NCBI GenBank assembly: GCA_001776545.1
Contig: MFBZ01000025.1
Location: forward strand, 1-40,691
DNA: 40,691 nucleotides
Direction: 5' to 3'
Origin: Candidatus Curtissbacteria bacterium RIFCSPLOWO2_12_FULL_41_16
GTDB lineage: Bacteria > Patescibacteriota > Microgenomatia > Curtissbacterales > GWA2-41-24
Shown: positions 5,495 through 40,691 of the stretch, piece after piece
Numbering within the stretch: the first letter of the stretch is position 1
Layout of the letters: each line of letters starts with the position of its first letter
The notes under the pieces: model-generated
Seen by the model: the letters and a program-made list of their open reading frames with translations, nothing else
The model's database searches: none
What the model was told of the DNA's origin: nothing
Program-made: the position numbers and the translations under genes

Positions 5495-6156
5495 GCTAAA
5501 ACAAGAGCATAATAGACAGGAATTTTCTTTTTACTTTTAAGATAACCCACAAACTTTTTCGTGGCTAAAATCTCAAAACCTAGATTTGCAAGTAGACTTT
5601 TGATCTCCCCAACAGTTCTTCTATAGACTTTGAAACTTATAAGCCTGGGGATTTTAGCAACTAAACCCTGCCCCAATGATGTCACCCTGTTACCTTGAAT
5701 CGGATGATCATTGATATATTCCTCAAAAGTAAAACACAAAAATCCATTCCTTTTAGTAACTCTTGCTATCTGCTCAAAAAGCTTTTTCAGGTCTTTAATA
5801 AACTCAAATATGCCAACTCCGATTACTACATCAAATGAATCAGGCTTAAAGTCCAAACTCTTAAGCCCCTTCTCAAGATCATGCTTGTGAGTTTTGATTC
5901 GTGGAAATTTCTTCTTTAAAACCTTTAACATTGCTTCAGAGATATCTAATCCTACAATAGTATGTCCTAGTTGATAAAATCTCTCAGAACTCTGTCCTGT
6001 ACCTATACCTAAATCTAAAATTTTTGATTGTTTGCCAAGTTTTGGCAATAATATTTTCGTAGACTCTTTGGCAGCCTTCCATTTAAATTCTCCGCCGGTT
6101 GCCTCATCATAAACTTTGGCCAACCGATCATTATATTGCTCAATTATCCGCTTCAT
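5482..6156 (-). CDS. class I SAM-dependent methyltransferase
   Basis: Motif I ILDLGIGTGQSSERF; overlaps the glycosyltransferase stop by 4 nt. Confidence 0.87.
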   Translation of the reverse strand: MKRIIEQYNDRLAKVYDEATGGEFKWKAAKESTKILLPKLGKQSKILDLGIGTGQSSERFYQLGHTIVGLDISEAMLKVLKKKFPRIKTHKHDLEKGLKSLDFKPDSFDVVIGVGIFEFIKDLKKLFEQIARVTKRNGFLCFTFEEYINDHPIQGNRVTSLGQGLVAKIPRLISFKVYRRTVGEIKSLLANLGFEILATKKFVGYLKSKKKIPVYYALVLARKI

Positions 6157-7538
6157 TCCACTTTACTCTCCACAAACTTCAAAATCTCCCGCTTAAAGCG
6201 TTCTATGGAAAATTTTTGCGCATGGGCTCGGATGAATTTTGGGTCGAAATAACCGCGCCTCTCAAGATCAATAAAATTGTTAATTGCCAAAGTTAAAGAT
6301 CCCGCAGTTGGCGGGTTAAAGTAAACACCAGTGCACTTGCCGCGGCCGGCTGTCCAGTCAATCACCGACTCGAGCACTCCCCCTTCCGCATTAACAATCA
6401 CGGGTTTGCCTGCCGCCATCGCCTCAACCGGCACCAAGCCAAAATCTTCCTGACTCGCCGCAAAAATCACCGCCCGGCAATTTTGATAGAGCCTGATCAA
6501 TTCTTCATCAGAAACTTCACCTAAAAATTCGATTGTTGATCTGTCCTCACTCCCGGAGTGTTCTCCGAGTGACTCCCTGACTTCACTCCGGGAGTGTTTG
6601 TCCAATTTTAACTCGACATCATTCTTTACCTTTTTTGACCGATCGGCCAAATTTGATGTAATGCCGGCAAGTTTTTTGAGGTTTTCAAGCTCTCTGCCCG
6701 CCCCCACAACTTTGAGCGGCAATCCCAGCTTGGCATAGACTTCTACTGCCACATCTACGTTCTTGGAAGCAACAAGCCGGGAAACAACGAGAAAATAACT
6801 GTTCATAGTTAATCGTAAATCGTTCATCGGGTTTTTCTTTTTCACCCAATTAACCAATAACGATAAACGATTAACGTCAACTGGCGGGTAAATCACCACA
6901 CTATCTCGTCGATAAAATTTTTTAATTCGTGCCTGAACTTCTTTTGAATTGGCAATAAACCAGTCAACTCTCTGCGCTGCTTCAAAGTCATAAACCCGCA
7001 AAAAATGATTAACCAAAAGCGCATAAACTTTAACCGGCCAATACCGTTGCCAATCGACTGAAGTTTTATATCCATAAAGATATCGTGGGGACGTATGACA
7101 ATAGCAAACCTCAACAGTTCGTTGAGACCCTGAGCGACCCTGAGCGATCCTGAGCGATCCTGAGCGAGCGTAGCGAGTCGAAGGGGAGTCGAAGGGGAGT
7201 CGAAGGGGAGTCGAAGGGTTTCTCTTCTTGAACCCTTTTGTCACATACCAACTTGAGGAGCCAATCACCACATCAAAGTTCGAAAAGTCAAAACTATCCC
7301 AGATTAAGGGTGCCAAAAATCTTAAGGGGCTGTGAAGATATCTACTAAAAAGGGGCACTTTCTGTGCCCAAGAAGTACGAATGTCTTTATTTTTAAACCT
7401 CTCGTAGGCCGACGATCCTTTTCTATAAAAAGCCGTGTAAATTGGGGCCTTGGGCCAAATCTCCGAAAGCGCCAAAAGCACCCTTTCTGCTCCTCCAAAC
7501 TCATTCAAATAATCATGAACCAGGGCTACTCTCATCAA
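6153..7538 (-). CDS. glycosyltransferase family 4, carrying several in-frame repeat-derived insertions
   Basis: N-terminal VALVHDYLNEFGGAERVL; C-terminal EDFGLVPVEAMAAGKPVIVNAEGG. Insertions RNPSTPLRLPFDSPSTRYARSGSLRIAQGRSGSQR, NRLSLLVNWVKKKNPMNDLRLTMN and KHSRSEVRESLGEHSGSED. Confidence 0.9.
   Translation of the reverse strand: MMRVALVHDYLNEFGGAERVLLALSEIWPKAPIYTAFYRKGSSAYERFKNKDIRTSWAQKVPLFSRYLHSPLRFLAPLIWDSFDFSNFDVVIGSSSWYVTKGFKKRNPSTPLRLPFDSPSTRYARSGSLRIAQGRSGSQRTVEVCYCHTSPRYLYGYKTSVDWQRYWPVKVYALLVNHFLRVYDFEAAQRVDWFIANSKEVQARIKKFYRRDSVVIYPPVDVNRLSLLVNWVKKKNPMNDLRLTMNSYFLVVSRLVASKNVDVAVEVYAKLGLPLKVVGAGRELENLKKLAGITSNLADRSKKVKNDVELKLDKHSRSEVRESLGEHSGSEDRSTIEFLGEVSDEELIRLYQNCRAVIFAASQEDFGLVPVEAMAAGKPVIVNAEGGVLESVIDWTAGRGKCTGVYFNPPTAGSLTLAINNFIDLERRGYFDPKFIRAHAQKFSIERFKREILKFVESKVE
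6548..6596. repeat. palindromic element CACTCCCGGAGTG...CACTCCGGGAGTG inside the glycosyltransferase
   Basis: Two 13-nt near-palindromes flanking TTCTCCGAGTGACTCCCTGACTT. Confidence 0.85.
6807..6878. repeat. heptamer-arm hairpin (AGTTAATCGTAAATCGTTCAT...CAATAACGATAAACGATTAAC)
   Basis: Each arm is a degenerate 7-mer array and the arms are inverted; homologous to 8261-8340 and 40471-40498. Confidence 0.85.
7128..7218. repeat. 4-fold nested palindromic element
   Basis: Left arms (C/T)CCTGAGCGA x4, centre GCGTAGCG, right arms AGTCGAAGGG(G) x4. Confidence 0.95.
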
Positions 7539-8698
7539 ACAAGCTTTAGCTGATCATCAGATTGGTTAACAGTTGACGGTTGACAGTTCACAGATTTTTT
7601 CTGCTTTTTATTACTGTGAACTGTTAACTGTGAACTATGAACTTGCGAAAGCTTAGCAACAATCGACTTAAATCCTAACCCCTCATACTCCATCCGGACC
7701 TTTCCCCAATCCGGCCTAAATCGTAAATCGTTAATCGTAAACCTGCCTGCTCCTCGAGTCTGAACGACCCCTCTCGGCCATGAGCTCGTCGTTCGAGACC
7801 CTGAAGGGTCCTCAGACCCTGAACGGGAGGCCGAATGGTCGGAGTCGAAGACCGGCAGGCAGGTCGTCAAATCAACATTACTGTCCAGCTCCACCAGCTT
7901 CTTGGCGGCAAGAGCAATATCGTGACCCGCTTCCAGCTTCTCTCTTATATGTAAAGGGTTCTCCTTGACATGCTTAAAAAGGTTTTCCAAAGTCTGGTAT
8001 TTTTGCAAAAGTTGGGCCGCTGTTTTTGGTCCAATGCCCAAAATCCCCGGCACATTGTCAGACGGATCACCAATCAACGATTTATAATCAACCATCTGGC
8101 ACGGTTCAATTCCATATTTTCCGCGAACTTCCTTCGCACCAACTAAAACACCCCATCCGGGTTTACCCTCCGTAACTTTAGTGAAGGAGGGCATTTGGAC
8201 TTTGACGTTGCCGTTGACTAGTTGGAGAACATCACGATCACCACTGAGAATAACAATGTTCATAGTTAATCGTTTATCGTTCGTCGGAATTTTCTTCTTT
8301 TTATTTTCCCTATTAACTATTAAAGATGAACCATTAACGAATCTCGACACTAGCGTCGCAATCAAGTCATCCGCTTCATACCCTTCCTTCTCGAAATATT
8401 TAATGCCAAAAGCGTCCAGAATTTTCTTAACCTTTGGCAGTTGCGGGTATAAATCTGGCGGCGGCGCCACTCTTTGGGCTTTATATTCTGCAAATTCAAT
8501 ATGGCGAAATGTCGGCGCGCCGGTATCAAAAGCACAACCAATATGATCTGGCTTCACCTCACCAATCGCCTTAATTAGCATATTGGAAAACCCAAAAACG
8601 GCGTTTGCCATCTCTCCCTTCTTATCCGTTAGGGGCGGCAAAGCATGATAGGCGCGGTGCAAAAGCGAATTGCCGTCAATCAAAAGTAATCTATTCAT
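7535..8698 (-). CDS. stand-alone 5'-3' exonuclease (PolA N-terminal domain type)
   Basis: MNRLLLIDGNSLLHRAYHALPP, EADDLIATL, ILSGDRDVLQLV, LIGDPSDNVPGILGIGPKTA; no polymerase domain in this ORF. Confidence 0.9.
   Translation of the reverse strand: MNRLLLIDGNSLLHRAYHALPPLTDKKGEMANAVFGFSNMLIKAIGEVKPDHIGCAFDTGAPTFRHIEFAEYKAQRVAPPPDLYPQLPKVKKILDAFGIKYFEKEGYEADDLIATLVSRFVNGSSLIVNRENKKKKIPTNDKRLTMNIVILSGDRDVLQLVNGNVKVQMPSFTKVTEGKPGWGVLVGAKEVRGKYGIEPCQMVDYKSLIGDPSDNVPGILGIGPKTAAQLLQKYQTLENLFKHVKENPLHIREKLEAGHDIALAAKKLVELDSNVDLTTCLPVFDSDHSASRSGSEDPSGSRTTSSWPRGVVQTRGAGRFTINDLRFRPDWGKVRMEYEGLGFKSIVAKLSQVHSSQLTVHSNKKQKKSVNCQPSTVNQSDDQLKLV
7565..7644. repeat. heptamer-arm hairpin (ACAGTTG-ACGGTTG-ACAGTTC...ACTGTGA-ACTGTTA-ACTGTGA-ACTATGA)
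   Basis: 7-nt periodic inverted arms around a T-rich loop. Confidence 0.85.
7717..7742. repeat. heptamer array TAAATCG-TAAATCG-TTAATCG-TAAAC
   Basis: Three units plus partial, in-frame in the exonuclease tail. Confidence 0.75.
7743..7866. repeat. composite palindromic element, long copy with extra internal insert
   Basis: CTCCTCGAGTCTGAACGACCCCTCTCGGCCATGAGCTC..GGCCGAATGGTCGGAGTCGAAGACC flanked by CCTGCCTGC/GCAGGCAGG. Confidence 0.9.
8261..8340. repeat. heptamer-arm hairpin inside the exonuclease
   Basis: AGTTAATCGTTTATCGTTCGTCGG...ATTAACTATTAAAGATGAACCATTAACG; encodes VNGSSLIVNRENKKKKIPTNDKRLTMN. Confidence 0.85.
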
Positions 8699-17261: not shown

Positions 17262-17996
17262 ATGGAAATATCACTTGCTGCTGAAAAAATATTTTCAATC
17301 GGCCCCATACCGATTACCAACACTATCCTCACAACCTGGATCGTTACCATTATATTAATAGCCACAGCATATGTTGCGACCAAAAAAGTTGCTCTTGTCC
17401 CAACGGGCCTCCAGAATGTTGCCGAGGCGGCAATCGAAGCCTTTCAAGATCTAGTTTTCTCTGTCGCCGGCCAAAAAACAAGAGTTTTTTTGCCAATAGT
17501 TGCCAGTTTTTTCTTTTTTATTTTATTTGGCAATTATTTTGGTATCCTGCCTGGTATCGGCTCAATCGGTTTTTTCTTGCATCATAACGGCAAAGAAGTT
17601 TTTGTCCCGCTTTTCCGCTCCATCAATTCCGATTTAAACACTACTGTTGCCCTGGCTCTTGTATCACTTTTCACTACTCATTATCTTGCTATTCGCTATC
17701 TCGGCCTTGGTGGTTACTTGGGTAAATTCGTAAGCGTCAATCCGATCTTTTTTTTCGTTGGCCTTATGGAAATCGTCTCCGAAATAACAAAAATCTTCTC
17801 GCTTTCCTTTCGACTTTTTGGCAATATTTACGCGGGCGAAGTCCTCTTAACCACTGCCTCGACTCGCCTCTTTGCCTTTATTATTCCAATACCGTTTTAT
17901 TTTCTTGAGCTTCTTGTAGGCTTTGTTCAAGCCTTAATCTTTGCTATGCTAACACTAGTCTTTATGGTAATCTTAACGCAGAAGTCAGAACACTAA
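17262..17996 (+). CDS. atpB: F-type ATP synthase subunit a
   Basis: SLSFRLFGNIYAGEVLL and C-terminal ALIFAMLTLVFM. Confidence 0.95.
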   Translation: MEISLAAEKIFSIGPIPITNTILTTWIVTIILIATAYVATKKVALVPTGLQNVAEAAIEAFQDLVFSVAGQKTRVFLPIVASFFFFILFGNYFGILPGIGSIGFFLHHNGKEVFVPLFRSINSDLNTTVALALVSLFTTHYLAIRYLGLGGYLGKFVSVNPIFFFVGLMEIVSEITKIFSLSFRLFGNIYAGEVLLTTASTRLFAFIIPIPFYFLELLVGFVQALIFAMLTLVFMVILTQKSEH

Positions 17997-18020
17997 ATAT
18001 AATTTATAATTTTTACTTTT

Positions 18021-18103
18021 TATTGAAATTTAAATGTTTTAAATTGCAAAGAAAATATCAAAGATATTTTTAAAAATTGATTGAAAATTGAAAATTGAAA
18101 ATT
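18021..18103. repeat. AT-rich intergenic repeat, copy 1
   Basis: Reverse complement closely matches 39712-39795; contains hairpin AAAATATC-AAA-GATATTTT (18052-18070). Confidence 0.75.
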
Positions 18104-24601: not shown

Positions 24602-25573
24602 TTACCTAAATACCCTCCCACTAAGTCCAAACTTGGCATTCAAGGCTTTCAGAAAATGTTGCTTATCAAAATATCCAAACTTCACTCTATATCTCCCTCT
24701 TTCCACTTTCACACTTTGCCTGCCCGCCAAAGCCCTTCGGGTCTGAGCCTCAGGTCTTCGACTCCGACCATTCGGCCTTGAGCTCATGGCCGAGAGGGGT
24801 CGCTCAGACTCGAGGAGGTCGAAGACCTTGGCGTCGGCGGGACTTTGACTAATCTTTGTATGCTCCTGCCCATCAACAATTAAAGAAACATCATCGCCTT
24901 TTCTTACCTTAATCTCCACAACATCATTTGGTGAAAGAGCCACCGAAGGAATCGACAATCCAACAGCGTTGATCGGCGTAATCAAAAAACAATCAACCTC
25001 AGGCTCTACAATCGGCCCGCCGGCCGAAAGTGAATAAGCAGTCGATCCGGTTTGGGTCGAAACAATCACGCCATCCCCCACAATTTCTAAAAATTTTTGC
25101 CCGTTAACCGTAATTTCTAAATCAACCACCCGATACATCCCCTTGACTACGACTTCATTCAATGCCCGAAAATTTCCACCTTCGAGGTGGGCTTGTCCTG
25201 AGTTATATCGAAGGGCTCTGACTCCTCGAAGGTGGAAATTTTTGCTGATCCCGGCTTCGAGCGTCATTCGCTCCGAAATAAAATACTTACCATCGATCAA
25301 TTTCTCGATTGCTCCCTGCCACTCACTTCCCTCCGCCGCTGTCAAAAACCCAAGTGTCCCGGCATTAATCCCCACAAACGGCACATTAAGCTCAACATGC
25401 TCGCAAGCCGCATGAAGCAGTATTCCATCCCCACCAAGAGTAACAACGAGGTCCGACCTCGTCAAATTCGTATCCAAGACCTCATGGCCTCTGGTTTCCA
25501 GATACTTTTTGACCTTCTTAGCAAGGTCACGGGCTTTAGGGATATCTTCAGCCACAACAATCCCAAATTTCAC
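24602..25573 (-). CDS. NAD kinase with two in-frame repeat-derived insertions
   Basis: VVTLGGDGILLHAA, GINAGTLGFLT, GDGVIVSTQTGSTAYSLSAGGPIV, INAVGLSIPSV; insertions NFHLRGVRALRYNSGQAHLEGGNF and LLESERPLSAMSSRPNGRSRRPEAQTRRALAG. Confidence 0.93.
   Translation of the reverse strand: MKFGIVVAEDIPKARDLAKKVKKYLETRGHEVLDTNLTRSDLVVTLGGDGILLHAACEHVELNVPFVGINAGTLGFLTAAEGSEWQGAIEKLIDGKYFISERMTLEAGISKNFHLRGVRALRYNSGQAHLEGGNFRALNEVVVKGMYRVVDLEITVNGQKFLEIVGDGVIVSTQTGSTAYSLSAGGPIVEPEVDCFLITPINAVGLSIPSVALSPNDVVEIKVRKGDDVSLIVDGQEHTKISQSPADAKVFDLLESERPLSAMSSRPNGRSRRPEAQTRRALAGRQSVKVERGRYRVKFGYFDKQHFLKALNAKFGLSGRVFR
24719..24837. repeat. composite palindromic element, short copy inside NAD kinase
   Basis: Reverse complement contains CTCCTCGAGTCTGAGCGACCCCTCTCGGCCATGAGCTC-AA-GGCCGAATGGTCGGAGTCGAAGACC, as at 7743-7866 minus the internal insert. 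Confidence 0.9.
25169..25242. repeat. long nested hairpin element inside NAD kinase
   Basis: Perfect inverted AAATTTCCACCTTCGAGG/CCTCGAAGGTGGAAATTT enclosing TCCTGAGTTATATCGAAGGG. Confidence 0.93.
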
Positions 25574-33904: not shown

Positions 33905-34013
33905 TGGCCTTTAGGCCTTCGACCGTGAGGTCTTCGACTCCGAGGCTCAGATCTTCGATTCCGAGATCGTCACTCAGATTCGAGGAACTCGAGGAGCTCA
34001 GACCGAATCGGCC
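33905..34013. repeat. composite palindromic element spanning the 3' end of the aldolase gene
   Basis: Nested GGTCTTCGACTCCGAGGCTCAG / CTCAGATTCGAGGAACTCGAGGAGCTCAGACC arms; supplies the stop codon of 33998..34978. Confidence 0.8.
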
Positions 34014-39711: not shown

Positions 39712-39795
39712 TCATTGAATTTTCAATGATTTAATTTTTCAAAATATCTTTGATATTTTCTTTGCAATTTTAAACATTTAGATTTCATTAAAAAT
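39712..39795. repeat. AT-rich intergenic repeat, copy 2
   Basis: Matches reverse complement of 18021-18103; hairpin AAAATATC-TTT-GATATTTT at 39741-39759. Confidence 0.75.
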
Positions 39796-39808
39796 TTCAA
39801 ATTAAAAA

Positions 39809-40691
39809 TTAGATTTTGAAAGTCTTTTTTACTTTCAATATTCCTTCCACCAACCTATCTATCTCCTCCTTCGTATTGTACAGATAAAAACTCGCTCTTG
39901 CAGCTGAACTAATACCCAAAAATTCCATTAAAGGTTGAGCACAATGATGACCGGAACGAATGGCAATTCCCTCGGAATCCAGTATTGATGCCACATCATG
40001 AGCGTGAATATTACCGATATTGAAGGAAATAACCCCACCCCTTGCGGTCGGATCACGAGAGCCTAGGATCTTAACTTCAGGAACCGTCTCTAGCTTCACA
40101 AGGGCACCCCTTGTCAGCTCAATTTCGTGCTTACGGATATTCTCTATCCCAATTCTCTCCAAATAATCAACCGAGGCCGCAAGTCCAACCGCCCCGGCAA
40201 TATTTGGCGTTCCTGCCTCAAATTTCCAAGGCAACTCGTTCCAGCTTGATCGATCAAAACCCACCTTCGAAATCATCTCACCTCCATATAAAAAGGGGGC
40301 AGTCTCCTCCAAAATTTCTCGTTTCCCCCATAAAACCCCAATTCCTGTTGGCCCCAACATCTTATGTCCAGTAAAAACATAGAAGTCGCAGCCAATCGAA
40401 TCTATATCAACCGGCATATGCGGCACCGCCTGTGCCCCATCGATCAGTATTTTTGCTTTGGGCGCTTCCCGATGAACGATTAACGATAAACGATTAACGT
40501 CATTTATCGTCCCAAGAACATTGGACACATGAAAGAAAGTGGCCAATTTCGTTTTTTTAGTTAACGCTTTCTTAAATGCCAACTCATCCAATTCTCCATT
40601 CTCACCGACCGGTCGAAGACCTCTTCGAGCCTGAGCCTCAGAGCCGAAGGCCTGAGCTTGCCGAACGGGCACAATTTTCAAAACTGCCCCG
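39809..40691 (-). CDS. SufS/Csd-type cysteine desulfurase, 5'-truncated by window edge, with repeat insertion
   Basis: FHVSNVLGTI, ILIDGAQAVPHMPVDIDSIGCDFYVFTGHKMLGPTGIGVLWGK, AIRSGHHCAQPLM; frame open to the window edge (GAVLKIVPV...). Confidence 0.93.
   Translation of the reverse strand, partial: GAVLKIVPVRQAQAFGSEAQARRGLRPVGENGELDELAFKKALTKKTKLATFFHVSNVLGTINDVNRLSLIVHREAPKAKILIDGAQAVPHMPVDIDSIGCDFYVFTGHKMLGPTGIGVLWGKREILEETAPFLYGGEMISKVGFDRSSWNELPWKFEAGTPNIAGAVGLAASVDYLERIGIENIRKHEIELTRGALVKLETVPEVKILGSRDPTARGGVISFNIGNIHAHDVASILDSEGIAIRSGHHCAQPLMEFLGISSAARASFYLYNTKEEIDRLVEGILKVKKTFKI
40471..40498. repeat. heptamer array GATGAAC-GATTAAC-GATAAAC-GATTAAC inside sufS
   Basis: 4 units of 7; shares TGACGTTAATCGTTTATCGTTA with 6859-6880 (minus strand). 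Confidence 0.85.
40609..40672. repeat. composite palindromic element inside sufS
   Basis: GGTCGAAGACCTCTTCGAGCCTGAGCCTCAGAGCCGAAGGCCTGAGCTTGCCGAACGGG; encodes extra RQAQAFGSEAQARRGLRPV. Confidence 0.85.

Follow-up and report, generated by a model that had tools for sequence, protein, structure and literature searches.

Nested palindromic modules inside genes of a Curtissbacteria genome, with nearly every stage of stacking still present

How do two copies of a large composite palindrome, lying in different genes of one contig, come to differ by a discrete block near their centres? The question was raised by the window, i. e. the whole stretch of 40,691 nucleotides analysed here, which is one of the 30 contigs of a Candidatus Curtissbacteria genome (995,255 bp, 94% complete, 41.6% GC, coding share ~ 86%), and it bears on the site choice of REP-like palindromes and on the reasons for which composites form. 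All contigs of the genome were analysed, beyond the window alone. The first-pass annotation had placed one copy at 7743 in an exonuclease gene and the other, inverted, at 24719 in a NAD kinase gene, and both were indeed found there: identity is 97% over 38 nt in the left arms and 100% over 26 nt in the right arms, and both gene names were confirmed by family matches (PF02739/PF01367 and PF01513/PF20143). An Rfam search of the window returned tRNAs only. The copy in the exonuclease gene was resolved into five levels, L0 (outermost) to L4:

7535..8698, minus strand: host gene, 5'-3' exonuclease (Pol I N-terminal type), 387 residues
7742..7863, plus strand: complete stack of five levels, 122 bp, lying in the exonuclease ORF and missing in orthologues of ten genera
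7742..7749, plus strand: L0 left arm CCTGCCTG; the empty L0 is CCTGCCTGCTGGCAGGCAGG, at C10:206
7750..7769, plus strand: L1 (F1) left half CTCCTCGAGTCTGAACGACC; copies with L1 only occur at C10:752 and C16:65167, and other Patescibacteria have them in 26 contigs
7770..7787, plus strand: L2 left half CCTCTCGGCCATGAGCTC; L1 and L2 without further levels at C15:16664 and at window 24753
7788..7827, plus strand: L3 hairpin of the CGTTC...GAACG type, the loop of which holds L4, 40 bp; L3 without L4 at C15:26794-26838
7805..7822, plus strand: L4, AGGGTCCTCAGACCCTGA, 18 bp, with the direct repeat GACCCTGA on both sides
7828..7838, plus strand: L2 right half AGGCCGAATGG
7839..7853, plus strand: L1 (F1) right half TCGGAGTCGAAGACC
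7854..7863, plus strand: L0 right arm GGCAGGCAGG

The L3 arms in this stack are GTCGTTCGAGACCCTGA/ACGGG, and fold prediction for the 122-nt DNA gave a single nested hairpin (dG -32.0, z -3.3). GTAG/CTAC was not found within 7742-7863; L1 has CTCC/GGAG only. The modules form short imperfect palindromes at 8–10 places in the genome. Since raw 8-mer counts of CCTGCCTG in genes are mostly chance, paired arms were used instead. An outer pair CCTGCCTGC/GCAGGCAGG, which had been assigned to both copies, is present in the 7743 copy only, the 24719 copy being bounded by CCCGCC...GGCGGG; and the proposed nesting of at least three levels is real but goes further, to five, in the 7742-7863 stack.

The same genome retains filled and empty states of these levels. 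L0 alone was found at C10:206, L0+L1 at C10:753 (with a variant at C16:65167), L1+L2 at C15:16664 and window 24753, L1+L2+L3 at C15:26768-26853 and L1–L4 at C19:40341, C1:6105 and window 7743, where the L1–L4 block is 98% identical. Nearly every intermediate of the stacking is thus still present in the genome, and the net steps along the series from L0 to L4 amount to 33, 30, 21 and 18 bp. From these preserved states, the order of insertion, the target and the structure of the ends can be read directly. The extra DNA of the 7743 copy, described as about 38 bp inserted cleanly and exactly into the centre, is real, but it amounts to 40 versus 1 bp (39 bp net) and comprises two nested steps (21 + 18), since the copy at C15:26768-26853 carries the first 21 bp only. 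Its junction lies 3–4 nt from the geometric centre and falls, in one copy, within the loop at the tip of the L2 hairpin (ATGAGCTCRA). Gradual divergence, named beforehand as the observation that would speak against insertion, was not seen; the copies differ in discrete blocks.

Insertion into a pre-existing palindrome stood up at or near the centre and generalised beyond this pair: 14 curated filled/empty steps were verified verbatim, letter by letter, and 13 of the 14, in a set picked post hoc, are multiples of three (binomial p 6e-6 versus one third). A systematic search for filled/empty pairs with a score >= 28 gave 46 matched pairs, not all independent, in which 22 junctions coincided with a palindrome centre of arm score >= 5, compared to 4.4% of random genome positions, and the step length was divisible by three in 35. 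No direct repeats were found at the L0/L1, L1/L2 and L2/L3 junctions, so that insertion is the simple reading there. The L3/L4 difference of 18 bp, however, is bordered by the 8-bp direct repeat GACCCTGA; slipped deletion from L4 to L3 explains this last step equally well as insertion, and its polarity is ambiguous. Two related elements were found in the window:

7128..7218, plus strand: self-nested element, in frame in the ORF 6153-7538; four left halves CCCTGAGCGA followed by four right halves AGTCGAAGGG(G)
33925..34005, minus strand: composite of the same modules, at or slightly past an ORF end

The former consists of the unit pair CCTGAGCGA/AGTCGAAGG with 21 bp per turn, and its order LLLLRRRR (4:4) is as repeated central self-insertion predicts. 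Its ORF looks like a glycosyltransferase, a name given from the sequence only. Relatives of the latter at C6:51342, C29:24226, C28:46156 and C16:16814 differ by blocks of 15, 30, 36 and 66 bp.

Next, the copies inside genes were compared with orthologues. In the exonuclease the insert comprises 41 amino acids, in frame, at residues 279-319 of 387, absent from the orthologues in ten genera. It is made up of the 122-bp stack plus one adjacent extra base, by which the frame is restored relative to the orthologue of genome G011. The empty site is repeat-like here and less clear than that of the NAD kinase, the features of which are:

24602..25573, minus strand: host gene, NAD kinase
24719..24841, minus strand: 123-bp in-frame insert; outer CCCGCC...GGCGGG, then GGTCTTCGAC, then L1+L2
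24753..24817, minus strand: L1+L2 core, with AA at the centre where the 7743 copy has L3+L4

Both inserts amount to 123 bp net, or 41 codons. Residues 244-285 of the NAD kinase are absent from orthologues in nine genera. In two relatives the empty site reads ATTAGTCAAAGTCAAAGTGTG, CAAAGT|CAAAGT, and exactly 123 bp lie between the two units in our genome; a target-site duplication was not found by comparison with this empty site. The insert was modelled as disordered (pLDDT < 50 at 245-283) between the beta strands at 236-241 and 287-301. In LeuRS (C15:15218-18019) an L1+L2 copy at residues 479-510 is absent from orthologues, and copies were also found in DnaX and MurE, both named from their sequences without a family search; the DnaX copy lies in a variable linker and is the weaker case. 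Using gene calls by a hexamer scorer, seven of the nine paired L1 loci were located within ORFs > 150 aa. Stop-codon avoidance by the modules was no stronger than in shuffles. Reduced, densely coding genomes can therefore absorb mobile DNA inside essential proteins such as NAD kinase, 5'-3' exonuclease and LeuRS.

LeuRS also holds AAACCCGGTTTG-type REPs, which are read as KPGLE repeats; REPINs of this type lie inside ORFs > 150 aa in 15 of 18 cases in this genome.

To see how far the L1 module is distributed, 85,462 species genomes were scanned for L1 with 2–32 bp between its halves. The pattern matched 26 contigs, all but a few of them labelled Patescibacteria (three MAG contigs are labelled merely "bacterium"), spanning Curtiss-, Levy-, Woese-, Davies-, Roizman-, Woyke-, Wildermuth- and Peregrinibacteria, and L1 was almost invariant. 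Its surroundings and contents vary: the outer host is CCTGCCTGC/GGCAGGCAGG in some contigs and ACACACC/GGTGTGT in locus L144, three lineages carry different cargo at the L1 centre, and loci L141 and L148 (the G011 locus) have a different hairpin at the very centre. Within different outer hosts the L1 block holds cargo of 0, 27, 30, 51 or 69 bp, so that the unit is defined by the ends of L1. ACC|TCGGAG is the entry point for modules of the F2 type (TTCGGCTGAGCTCACGGCCGAA and its kin) in L1 as well as in the CACCTC REP. An assembly artefact was ruled out because independent projects yielded MAGs containing L1 and because reading frames are maintained across the inserts. Complementarity of the flanks of all L1 copies was considered as proof of centre targeting and rejected, as it holds for a subset only: an arm score >= 4 was reached by 31% of the copies versus 8% in the null, and 25 of 36 copies have no directly adjacent complementary flanks (arm score < 4). 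Many of the latter adjoin or sit between CTGAGC...GTCGAAGG units.

Taken together, the stack probably consists of several families of REP-like miniature mobile palindromes, each inserted at or near the centre of the next outer one. Modules of 18–35 bp would land at or near the hairpin loop of the next-outer palindrome; they may move as single strands and could land preferentially in the loops of hairpins that extrude while the DNA is replicated. The enzyme would be a Y1 (HUH) transposase of the RAYT or IS200-IS605 kind acting in trans. The persistence of copies in genes would be due to step lengths nearly all divisible by three and to the location of the encoded peptide in surface loops. Most likely the elements are selfish, and we propose no host function. 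A broader proposition, that mobile hairpins of Patescibacteria target the loops of other hairpins, including their own, so that central stacking has no fixed limit and life in an ~ 86% coding genome keeps the steps frame-neutral, is put forward tentatively and is open to doubt.

Other routes to such a series have to be weighed against stepwise insertion. Palindromes might have been seeded once and, without any transposition into loops, recombination or gene conversion might later have exchanged the centres of arm-sharing copies; the long arms common to several copies and the 98% identity of the L1–L4 block at its three loci would fit such an exchange. But the L1 arms measure 15–20 nt and recur in unrelated outer palindromes and different bacterial classes, which leaves little homology for conversion; moreover, F2 uses one and the same 9-mer to enter L1 and the CACCTC REP, which are unrelated, and no prior palindrome was present at the NAD kinase and exonuclease sites. 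We therefore regard cargo swapping as unlikely. The series might also be read in reverse, large stacks shedding their tips via slipped deletion across hairpins. L3 is indeed derivable from L4 by slippage at the 8-bp repeat, but the lack of such repeats at the three outer junctions, the phylum-wide occurrence of L1-only copies and the three different cargoes at one L1 centre make this direction quite improbable for the series as a whole.

Insertion at centres would be accounted for as well if an SbcCD-like nuclease cut the hairpin tips and the break was sealed with a captured short palindromic fragment. SbcD was not found in this genome (E 0.001), which is 94% complete, and near-invariant, reused modules would be left unexplained, so that we give this route very little credence. 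A function at the RNA level, such as terminators or processing hairpins driving convergent hairpin growth, finds a parallel in the short TTCGACTTYGCTCA core with its variable yet complementary arms. Yet most L1 copies lie within ORFs and not at gene ends, and the steps consist of whole, discrete blocks rather than of base-by-base covariation; an origin of this kind is extremely improbable.

As candidate movers of the palindromes, Y1 transposases were searched in this genome and its relatives. Seven Y1_Tnp genes were found in the genome itself, and 50 of 59 relatives have Y1 genes. Most of the seven are flanked by their own palindrome pair or REP family, as are most of the ~ 40 Y1 genes of the family, in line with the description of RAYT genes flanked by their own palindrome pair (PMC2817692). 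The L0–L4 modules flank none of the seven own or about 40 relatives' Y1 genes. RAYT-linked REPs serve as hosts in some stacks (C8, C2, C4). TnpA-REP is described to cleave at CT or CA (PMC8266576). Because no target duplication was seen and the landing sites are hairpins, a RAYT-like single-stranded DNA mechanism would be the best available candidate for moving the modules.

Among the Y1 loci of the Curtissbacteria family (L179-L218), nearly each gene is flanked by a perfect palindrome pair that differs from gene to gene and is often followed by TTGACA, and these loci make up a rich set of new RAYT/REP pairs. The Y1 transposase gene at C19:19556-20305 has no obvious flanking palindrome pair; a CACCTC REPIN lies in the purH-like ORF immediately upstream.

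The stacks resemble the REP/REPIN system of RAYT/TnpA-REP in that they are built of short dispersed imperfect palindromes in a genome and family having Y1 genes with their own palindromes. They differ from it, since L0–L4 flank no RAYT found here and carry no GTAG, the nesting is several levels deep with the intermediates kept, and the copies are mostly intragenic, not extragenic. REPs within other palindromes were described for A. variabilis GTAG-15, T. roseum GTAG-23 and H. neapolitanus CGTC-1, and intragenic REPs are in frame, many of them in DNA-repair genes (PMC3733652). Rickettsia palindromic elements (RPEs) are palindromes of about 100–150 bp, in frame in unrelated housekeeping genes and absent from orthologues (PMC10969869). 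In-frame insertion into genes whose orthologues lack the insert is common to RPEs, intragenic REPs and our elements, but the latter belong to another phylum, have other sequences and form a resolvable stack of separate modules; they extend the Rickettsia case of in-gene palindromes to the candidate phyla radiation. MITEs likewise are short non-coding mobile palindromes, unlike which the resolved NAD kinase insertion has no target-site duplication. The SDRs of Nostoc-type cyanobacteria are very short mobile repeats located inside other repeats. They are alike in being repeats inside repeats, and in-frame gene stacks are not known among them. SDRs have been named as a comparable class (PMC3116915). 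A literature search for nested bacterial palindromes and for the module sequences, which covered few subscription papers, gave nothing direct: neither a multi-level series with intermediates nor a description from Patescibacteria was found. REPs inside palindromes and in-frame palindromes such as RPEs are thus known singly; the multi-level resolved series adds a variant to these known kinds.

Two other kinds of repeats were observed in the window. AT-rich repeats of the TTAATCGTAAATCG type are located at 6801-6831, 8265-8286 and 40468-40498, some of them in frame within genes. One corresponds to residues about 123-147 of the exonuclease, where G009, G011 and other orthologues have different low-complexity filler. 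Finally, a pair of 84-nt inverted repeats at 17995-18078 and 39733-39816 is 89% complementary.
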